The notes beneath the pieces were generated by a model. That model saw only the letters and a program-made list of their open reading frames with translations, made no database searches and was not told the DNA's origin. From Ferruginibacter sp. (GTDB lineage: Bacteria; Bacteroidota; Bacteroidia; Chitinophagales; Chitinophagaceae), in assembly GCA_028288705.1 (NCBI GenBank), contig JAQBNH010000007.1, forward strand, positions 620,001 to 684,000: 64,000 nucleotides of DNA. Reading direction: 5' to 3'. Made by a program: the position numbers and the translations under genes. Positions 40,422-47,895 of this stretch are shown here, in pieces. Position 1 is the stretch's first letter. Every line of letters starts with the position of its first letter.

Positions 40422-40616
40422 TTAGGCGTTATCGTCTGTATTTTTCCGGGCCAGTAATTCAGTCCGCCTGGGTTCTGATACGCGTTCATAATTATAAGGG
40501 CAATGCAGGCAGCCATTTCCACAGCAGGCTCCTTTTTTCAAATGGAAACTTTCAGTCAGCACAATATAACCTGCTGTATTGAAGTAATAGTCCTCACCTT
40601 CTACCAGTTTATCCAT
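40422..40616 (-). CDS. DUF5522 small cysteine-containing protein
   Basis: YYFNTAGYIVLTESFHLKKGACCGNGCLHCPYNYERV. Confidence 0.85.
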   Translation of the reverse strand: MDKLVEGEDYYFNTAGYIVLTESFHLKKGACCGNGCLHCPYNYERVSEPRRTELLARKNTDDNA

Positions 40617-41322
40617 GATCGGGAGTTTGATTTTCCCTTTGCTTCAGGATTTCCTGTAATTGATCATCCAGGTCAGGTATAACTGCGGGCAATTGAAAAC
40701 TAAGGGAATAGATCGTATTGCTCCTGGCGATATCAAGCCCTTCATAATGCGTACGGATCTTTAGTTCCGGCAGGCTGCTTTTTTTATAAACATCATCGCA
40801 ATCAGCGTGGATAGGCAGGCCATACATTTCCGAAACGGTTTTCGTGAAGCGGTATAAGTCAGGCGAATCAGTTTTTAAATGTACGATCCCCGACTTTTTC
40901 AAGACCTGTTGATAGAGCCTCAGGAAACGTGGATGTGTCAAACGTTTTTTAGCCTTTGACGTACGTAATTGCGGATCGGGGAAAGTGATCCAGATGGCAT
41001 CCACTTCCGCTTCGTCAAAATATTGGGGAAGCATTTCGATCTGGGTACGGAGAAATGCGGCATTTGTCAAACCGCGATCCAGCGCTTTTTTGGCGCCGAG
41101 GTACATCCGGTTTCCCTTAATGTCGACGCCGATATGATTTTGCTCAGGGTGCATTTCCGAGAGCCCGATGGTATATTCTCCACGCCCGCAAGCCAGTTCC
41201 AAAACCAGTGGATGCTCATTCTTAAAAAAAGCATTCCATTGCCCATTCATTGATTGCGGGTATTCGAGCACATTAGCAAATTCTTTTATCTGTGCGAACC
41301 GGAGCAATTTTTTTTGTGCCAT
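40609..41322 (-). CDS. trmB: tRNA (guanine-N7-)-methyltransferase
   Basis: LVLELACGRGEYTIGLSEMHPEQNHIGVDIKGNRMYLGAKKAL...WITFPDPQLRTSKAKKRLTHPRFL. Confidence 0.94.
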   Translation of the reverse strand: MAQKKLLRFAQIKEFANVLEYPQSMNGQWNAFFKNEHPLVLELACGRGEYTIGLSEMHPEQNHIGVDIKGNRMYLGAKKALDRGLTNAAFLRTQIEMLPQYFDEAEVDAIWITFPDPQLRTSKAKKRLTHPRFLRLYQQVLKKSGIVHLKTDSPDLYRFTKTVSEMYGLPIHADCDDVYKKSSLPELKIRTHYEGLDIARSNTIYSLSFQLPAVIPDLDDQLQEILKQRENQTPDHG

Positions 41323-47018: not shown

Positions 47019-47052
47019 CAAGAGGTAAGTCTCTGATGTGCGTTAGAGGCAC

Positions 47053-47093
47053 AAAAAAACCGTTAACATATTGATCACCAATACATTAACGGT
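47053..47093 (-). terminator. Intrinsic terminator of the minus-strand tRNA-like RNA gene
   Basis: Minus strand: ACCGTTAA-tg-TATTG-gtgat-CAATA-tg-TTAACGGT hairpin followed by TTTTTTT. Confidence 0.85.
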
Positions 47094-47102
47094 CTATTTA
47101 AG

Positions 47103-47273
47103 CTGTAGGGGAAGGGCTCGAACCTCCACGAGGCAGTTAGCTGTAGTACAAAGTTCGGTGGTCGACCCCGGTCGGTTCACTATTGCTAATGAACCGGCTC
47201 TATGCTACGTTTGTCCTGTTATCCTCACCCCCGAGACAAGAGGGTATGTCTGCCAAAATTTCATCACCCCACA
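47103..47273 (-). ncRNA. Type-II tRNA-like RNA with an 89-nt insertion in the variable arm
   Basis: Acceptor TGTGGGG/CCCTACA (7 bp), G73; D arm ATG-AAATTTTGGCAGA-CAT; anticodon arm CCCTC-TTGTCTC-GGGGG; variable-arm stem TGAGG/CCTCG; T arm GGAGG-TTCGAGC-CCTTC; followed by terminator. Confidence 0.65.
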
Positions 47274-47305: not shown

Positions 47306-47313
47306 CAAAGATA
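47306..47313 (-). promoter_or_regulatory. Bacteroidota -7-type element (TATCTTTG) upstream of the tRNA-like RNA
   Basis: Minus strand TATCTTTG matches TAnnTTTG, ~33 nt before the tRNA-like 5' end; no clear -33. Confidence 0.45.
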
Positions 47314-47421: not shown

Positions 47422-47895
47422 ATGGCGGCAAAATTGAATCTTGACAAACTTGATCTGCAGATCATTCATGCAATGATGGAAAATGCGGAAATATCTTATG
47501 CAGAGTTAGGAAAAAAATTATTTGTCAGCGGGGGAACCATTCACGTGCGCATTAAAAAACTGCAGGAGTTTAATATCGTGAAAGGTACAAGGCTGAGCGT
47601 CGATCTCAAATTACTGGGTTATGATATTACCGCATTCGTGGGCATTTACCTGGAAAAAAGTTCTCTGTATGATGCAGTTGCTAAAGACCTGATGAAAATT
47701 CCCGAGATCATCCGCCTCAATTATATCACGGGTAATTACAGCATGTTTATCGAGATCGTTTGTAAAGATATCAGCCAGCTCCGGTATGTCTTGCATGATG
47801 AATTGCAAAAGATAAAAGGCATTGAACGCACCGAAACTTTCATTTCCCTCGAAGAAGGATTTATCCGGAACGTTCCGGTAGCGCCGGCTGAATAG
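47422..47895 (+). CDS. Lrp/AsnC family transcriptional regulator
   Basis: LDKLDLQIIHAMMENAEISYAELGKKLFVSGGTIHVRIKKLQEFNIVKGTRL. Confidence 0.92.
   Translation: MAAKLNLDKLDLQIIHAMMENAEISYAELGKKLFVSGGTIHVRIKKLQEFNIVKGTRLSVDLKLLGYDITAFVGIYLEKSSLYDAVAKDLMKIPEIIRLNYITGNYSMFIEIVCKDISQLRYVLHDELQKIKGIERTETFISLEEGFIRNVPVAPAE

Follow-up and report, generated by a model that had tools for sequence, protein, structure and literature searches.

A conserved tRNA-like RNA with a GUC anticodon and a giant variable arm in Bacteroidota, and its proposed aspartylation and amidation by AspRS and GatCAB

Introduction

The identity of bacterial tRNA-Asp resides in G73, G10, the anticodon bases G34, U35 and C36, and C38, while amidation of Asp-tRNA(Asn) is determined by the U1-A72 pair, with G1-C72 and U20a acting as antideterminants (PMC9976931). 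A 2014 survey counted 67-68 bacterial genera that have AsnRS, GlnRS and GatCAB at once, proposing tRNA-dependent asparagine synthesis for those in which asparagine synthetases are absent and a possibly vestigial GatCAB elsewhere (PMC4206432). Here we describe a locus in a 64,000-nucleotide stretch of a Ferruginibacter sp. genome (contig JAQBNH010000007.1, positions 620,001 to 684,000; hereafter the window) that encodes a tRNA-like RNA combining bases read by AspRS and GatCAB with a body resembling that of tRNA-Leu.

Results

A structured tRNA-like RNA on the minus strand of the window

Positions 47273 to 47102, read on the minus strand, encode a 172-nt cloverleaf RNA extending from U1 to C74. 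A covariance model trained on the window sequence among others (R1) matches this locus (G000:C19:667102-667273) with an E-value of 2.6e-49. The locus comprises the following features:

47102..47273, minus strand: tRNA-like RNA, U1 to C74 (alignment A2; covariance model R1)
47267..47273, minus strand: 5' strand of the acceptor stem, UGUGGGG, positions 1-7; U1, G2 and U3 near-invariant in the family
47246..47264, minus strand: D arm with a 3-bp stem (AUG/CAU) and a Leu-like loop, GGCAGAC
47228..47244, minus strand: anticodon arm, CCCUC-UUGUCUC-GGGGG
47235..47237, minus strand: GUC at positions 34-36, followed by U37 and C38
47130..47226, minus strand: giant variable arm, with compensatory changes; shorter in distant members
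47111..47127, minus strand: T arm, GGAGG-UUCGAGC-CCUUC
47104..47110, minus strand: 3' strand of the acceptor stem, CCCUACA, positions 66-72
47102..47103, minus strand: discriminator G73 and encoded C74, invariant in full-length members
47306..47313, minus strand: promoter -7-like element TATCTTTG, ~33 nt upstream of U1 (Bacteroidota consensus TAnnTTTG)
47050..47095, minus strand: intrinsic terminator, an 18-pair stem followed by a T run

The original prediction for this locus had listed a GUC anticodon, U37, a Leu-like D-loop, a long variable arm, G73 and the absence of an encoded CCA, and all of these are present on the minus strand. The acceptor stem has 7 bp and the T stem 5 bp, the D stem contains an A10-U25 pair, and the anticodon loop, UUGUCUC, yields the anticodon GUC with U at position 37. 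The D-loop, AAAUUUUGGCAGAC, matches host tRNA-Leu and not host tRNA-Ser. The base of the variable arm (U44, a stem, one unpaired base, U48) is also arranged as in host tRNA-Leu, whereas in host tRNA-Ser the variable stem adjoins U48 directly.

The predicted long variable arm is indeed there, but it spans ~97 nt and is itself structured, with helices V1 (GAGG/CCUC), V2 (CAG/CUG) and V3, a variable hairpin and a small hairpin. Among 20 genus homologues, 50 pairs of the RNA are kept at 96.9%, and both partners have changed in 18 of these pairs; such support is approached by 0 of 500 shuffles and by no slid register. A 27-pair core is 99.6% paired in 21 diverse homologues, with 10 doubly changed pairs. 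Compensatory changes are present in V1, V2, V3 and both hairpins, supporting the structure far above chance. V1, V2 and the internal loop RAYAAA / CUAA are kept almost throughout the family; the variable region measures 37-122 nt among intact members, and longer arms add V3, the variable hairpin and a conserved GGGUNGACCAC element. In the genus of the window, the loop of this element, a small hairpin, is a palindrome, GGUCGACC (~47168-47161, minus strand), invariant in 20/20 genus members, through which the RNA could form loop-loop dimers.

The gene lacks the full CCA, as predicted, and its encoded 3' end is G73-C74. This absence is no anomaly, however: host tRNAs also encode N73-C74, mostly without the full CCA, and the invariant G73-C74 therefore looks like a normal tRNA 3' end, of the kind expected of a tRNA that would be processed and CCA-extended in this host.

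The flanking signals recur among homologues. In 83 of 162 homologues, TAnnTTTG can be found in the 90 nt upstream, compared with 170 of 3240 random 90-nt stretches from the same loci, and a T5 run follows within 80 nt in 121 of the 162 homologous copies. In the window, 47050..47095 is the sole terminator-like site between 46950 and 47430 (shuffle mean 0.3). Upstream of the RNA lies a divergent Lrp/AsnC-family regulator (47422-47895, plus strand; Pfam AsnC_trans_reg), an arrangement also seen in several genus members. The gene trmB, for the tRNA m7G46 methyltransferase, directly follows the RNA in many relatives; in the window it occupies 40609-41322 on the minus strand, with other genes in between. 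Cis-regulation of a neighbour was considered and rejected, as trmB, the Lrp/AsnC gene and sufB recur only locally and no neighbour is common beyond lineages. This absence of a shared neighbour argues for action in trans, and the gene product is best explained as a free-standing, trans-acting RNA.

Distribution in bacterial and phage genomes

Rfam 15 yields no family match in the window at the gathering score and, with a relaxed threshold, only a chance mir-451 match on the terminator (E 0.35). ARAGORN misses the RNA gene, and searches of the open-licence literature returned no published description of the RNA. BLASTN identified relatives in 33 of 60 related genomes, and the covariance model, at E<1e-16, detected the RNA in 140 of the 249 genomes sampled from the order, with as many as six tandem copies. 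A further 39 genomes of the class outside the order carry it, with G339 and G438 marginal. Homologues are found in both Chitinophagales and Cytophagales, and also in phages; named carriers include Chitinophaga, Niastella, Niabella, Segetibacter, Terrimonas, Dyadobacter, Fulvivirga, Marinoscillum, Flammeovirga, Emticicia and Saprospiraceae. The RNA gene is real, widely conserved and so far unannotated. Weaker model matches of 80-85 nt (E 1e-9 to 1e-13) were ordinary Leu-type tRNAs where checked (L271, L272) and were set aside.

In IMG/VR, 31 contigs carry the RNA, several of them clearly phage, with terminase and portal genes, and on phage contig L238 the RNA adjoins a phage tRNA-Met. A BLASTN search against named phages and plasmids gave no match. 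The phage copies suggest that the RNA is wanted during infection. Phage contigs with the RNA also harbor other irregular, long tRNA-like genes (AGTCAGG...CCTGACTAC, 120-163 nt), located at:

L232:4342-4706
L232:9979-10112
L252:5951-6100

L252 additionally carries a tRNA with a UCA anticodon that ARAGORN calls SeC. At several loci (L003, L005, L015, L065 and L070), the full RNA is closely followed downstream by a second copy that is partial or degenerate, in some cases without a proper acceptor or D arm. L254 and L255, whose anticodon loops are degenerate or deleted, were classed as probable pseudogenes. A 77-nt gene of G339 (L258:1038-1114) pairs the family acceptor end, UGUGGGG...CUACAGC, with a short variable loop and the anticodon loop CUAUCUC, and is perhaps a reduced or intermediate family member.

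Identity elements point to AspRS and GatCAB

The anticodon loop was tallied in 74 distinct members selected without any anticodon-based pattern. Its register, which the original prediction had marked for checking, is the same in all clear homologues. U35, C36 and C38 are each present in 74/74 members and G34 in 72/74, the exceptions to GUC being L253 (CUC) and L258 (AUC). Position 33 is G or C rather than U in 10/74. At position 37, 69 members have U, four have G and one has C, giving a pyrimidine in 70/74. The bases read by AspRS are frozen, whereas drift is seen at the two positions that decoding requires, 33 and 37. G73 is invariant in full-length members, position 20a is A and not U, and U1-A72 is found in 100/100 full-length members of A4 and in 20/20 genus members.

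With the exception of G10, which is A10 in the RNA, all bacterial Asp determinants are present, and on this basis we propose charging by AspRS. The features of a GatCAB substrate, a U1-A72 pair and the lack of U20a, are present as well. The original prediction had read G73 as the discriminator of bacterial tRNA-Ser; the base is as described, but it is equally the discriminator of bacterial tRNA-Asp (PMC9976931).

The host genome contains a normal tRNA-Asp(GUC), a point that the original prediction had proposed to verify, with the loop CUGUCAC and a G1-C72 pair. The RNA shares GUC, G73 and C38 with decoding tRNA-Asp and departs from it in U33 and the purine at 37; it also lacks the short variable loop, the G10 and the G1-C72 pair of its host counterpart. 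A decoding paralogue of tRNA-Asp, reading GAC/GAU perhaps in particular mRNAs or under stress, would account for the GUC anticodon and the AspRS determinants, and would sit comfortably with phage copies that can adjoin phage tRNA genes, such as the tRNA-Met of L238. We consider such a paralogue very improbable given the loss of U33 (10/74), the pyrimidine at 37 (70/74) and the normal tRNA-Asp; moreover, U1-A72 would invite amidation and with it Asp-to-Asn errors. The same positions and the same host tRNA uphold the earlier view that the RNA is not an ordinary Asp decoder and likely has a non-ribosomal role.

Serylation, which the original prediction considered possible, fares less well as a leading idea. 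SerRS acts through G73 and the long variable arm, and serylation occurs in allo-tRNAs with varied anticodons (PMC7609411), so that an RNA combining G73 with a long variable arm might be charged with serine. The arm, however, carries at its foot an unpaired base of the Leu type, absent from host tRNA-Ser, and the D arm likewise follows the Leu type. The conserved positions 34-36 and 38 are those read by AspRS, whereas SerRS ignores the anticodon, and a serine-charged RNA would leave the invariant U35, C36, C38 and U1-A72, as well as the co-occurrence with gatB reported below, unexplained. We regard serine charging as unlikely.

Other assignments agree poorly with the RNA. It has no 12-bp acceptor domain (8/4 or 9/3) of the allo-tRNA type. 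LeuRS requires A73, and A73 is absent. A tmRNA-like reading was rejected, since an anticodon arm is present, the window has no RF00023 match and the host has a separate, ordinary tmRNA on contig C3. The invariance of U1-A72, together with the co-occurrence with GatCAB, instead points to charging with aspartate that would be followed by amidation.

Presence of the RNA predicts gatB

Because the invariant U1-A72 pair points to GatCAB, we compared the distribution of the RNA with that of gatB. In the family f1, gatB is present in 49/49 genomes with the RNA (48 and one more whose copy is truncated by the end of a contig) and missing in 10 of 11 genomes without it, including G248, which belongs to the genus of the window. 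AsnRS was found in all 57 genomes tested. Across the order, gatB is present in 135 of 140 genomes with the RNA, one fragment included. The six such genomes without a full gatB (G128, G151, G189, G218 and G249, plus G148 with the fragment) are all MAG-like, fragmented assemblies, each in several hundred contigs; for two, completeness is rated at 99%.

The relationship depends on GlnRS. Among order genomes picked for this comparison with their RNA and gatB status known, those with gatB and no RNA lack GlnRS (10/10), those with neither have GlnRS (16/16), and those with the RNA have gatB with or without GlnRS; where GlnRS is present, gatB accompanies the RNA in 27/27 genomes and occurs in 1/17 genomes without it. 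Since these genomes had been picked knowing both states, the comparison was repeated on 75 genomes of the class outside the order, picked on RNA status alone. In this set gatB is present in 39/39 genomes with the RNA, all 12 genomes without gatB lack the RNA and have GlnRS, and 23 of the 24 genomes with gatB and no RNA lack GlnRS. GlnRS is also missing from 23 of the 39 genomes with the RNA, in which gatB is therefore uninformative. The informative genomes are those with GlnRS, as GatCAB is not needed there for Gln-tRNA, and in these gatB is found in 16/16 genomes with the RNA and 1/13 without (Fisher p 2.5e-7). In Bacteroidota genomes with GlnRS, presence of the RNA predicts gatB.

This link might reflect phylogenetic inertia, with the RNA and gatB both ancestral and lost by chance in the same clades: both states are common to many genomes of one family, and independent contrasts number only ~4 to 11. 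An AsnRS tree of 40 order genomes shows 4 changes in the state of gatB, with no RNA in any of the instances where gatB is absent. A GlnRS tree of 52 genomes, which is an imperfect species tree with signs of GlnRS transfer, provides 7 independent pairs, none in the opposite direction (sign test median p 0.016). The contrasts, be they within a genus (G248 versus the other members of g1) or over many families, run the same way with none opposed, and gatB without the RNA is kept essentially only where GlnRS is missing, making inertia an improbable explanation. In the class, GlnRS relationships conflict with kinship (e.g. G000 groups with G059), suggesting repeated GlnRS transfer.

Besides the six order genomes lacking a full gatB, two genomes do not fit: G240 and G293 have gatB and GlnRS with no RNA found, the gatB of G293 being divergent. 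A comparison of GatB residues between groups revealed no clear diagnostic residues, with two weak positions only. AsnB scores over the cut-off in 24/30 genomes with the RNA and 24/27 without, and AsnA is rare. A role of the RNA as sole source of asparagine is thus not general, given that most genomes with the RNA have AsnB.

Discussion

From the conserved gene, its structure, its invariant determinants and its co-occurrence with gatB, we infer charging, amidation, exclusion from the ribosome and a fate for the resulting asparagine. The RNA is probably a non-decoding tRNA-like molecule that is aspartylated by AspRS and amidated by GatCAB. Its 3' end would be processed like that of a tRNA; AspRS would charge it with aspartate via G73, G34-U35-C36 and C38; and GatCAB would recognize U1-A72 and convert the bound Asp to Asn. 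Ordinary decoding would be prevented by the giant variable arm together with the odd bases at positions 33 and 37, so that no Asn is inserted at Asp codons. The Asn-RNA could then be used outside normal decoding: it might set its Asn free, pass it to another molecule or tether AspRS to GatCAB. Against recognition by AspRS stand A10 in place of G10 and the class-II-like body with its giant variable arm, which the enzyme must accept; against the link to GatCAB stand the misfit genomes, the sampling of the order with status known and the signs of GlnRS transfer.

The identity and co-occurrence evidence would also fit an RNA that, uncharged or Asp-charged, binds AspRS and GatCAB as scaffold or regulator of a transamidosome without carrying an amino acid onward. 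A ternary transamidosome of AspRS, tRNA and amidotransferase is known (PMC9976931), and the invariant variable-arm motifs, the GGUCGACC loop and the RAYAAA/CUAA internal loop, resemble putative binding sites. The complete and invariant tRNA 3' end, G73-C74, is nonetheless that expected of an aminoacylated RNA, and we hold a purely structural role to be rather unlikely.

Returning to an aspartylated and amidated RNA, we see about an even chance that the family constitutes a new class of non-coding RNA, a dedicated aminoacyl carrier on which Asn is made by AspRS and GatCAB for non-translational use. Should the RNA be the substrate, the amidation of aminoacyl-tRNA would include a branch outside decoding, served by a dedicated carrier RNA. 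Such a carrier class would explain why many Bacteroidota retain GatCAB and why some of their phages carry the RNA. For Bacteroidota, this offers an alternative account of gatB retention in genomes that have both AsnRS and GlnRS, where protein synthesis does not need GatCAB. ARAGORN and Rfam miss the RNA even though it is widespread in two orders and present in phages.

Among described systems, the transamidation of tRNA-Asn by AspRS and GatCAB in Deinococcus, Thermus and Bdellovibrio shares U1-A72 and G73 with the RNA, AspRS charging and GatCAB amidation being only proposed here; like that system, the RNA is present in genomes with AsnRS and GlnRS (PMC4206432). The transamidation system uses an ordinary tRNA-Asn (GUU) and a non-discriminating AspRS, usually with no asparagine synthetase, whereas the carrier proposed here is a distinct RNA that has GUC, a giant variable arm and an anticodon loop altered in ways that speak against decoding. 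Bacterial tRNA-Asp has the same G73, G34-U35-C36 and C38, but differs from the RNA in having G10 rather than A10 and G1-C72 rather than U1-A72, and in lacking the class-II-like D arm and variable arm, U37 and the drifting position 33. The D arm and the geometry of the variable-arm base are those of class II bacterial tRNA-Leu, and Leu tRNAs are the next matches of the model, yet G73 replaces A73, the anticodon is GUC and the variable region reaches 37-122 nt. Allo-tRNAs (Mukai et al. 2017, reviewed in PMC7609411), known from genomes and metagenomes, are the closest of the irregular tRNAs, with anticodons that do not match the body and are in some cases GUC. Their acceptor domains take the 8/4 or 9/3 form, their identity elements are those for SerRS (or AlaRS), and they occur in Clostridia, Proteobacteria and Acidobacteria (PMC7609411), whereas the RNA has a 7/5 acceptor domain and putative AspRS/GatCAB identity and occurs in Bacteroidota. 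tmRNA, finally, resembles it in placing aminoacylatable tRNA-like ends on a larger RNA, charging being predicted here, but the RNA has an anticodon arm and no G3-U70, and exists alongside a separate, ordinary host tmRNA.
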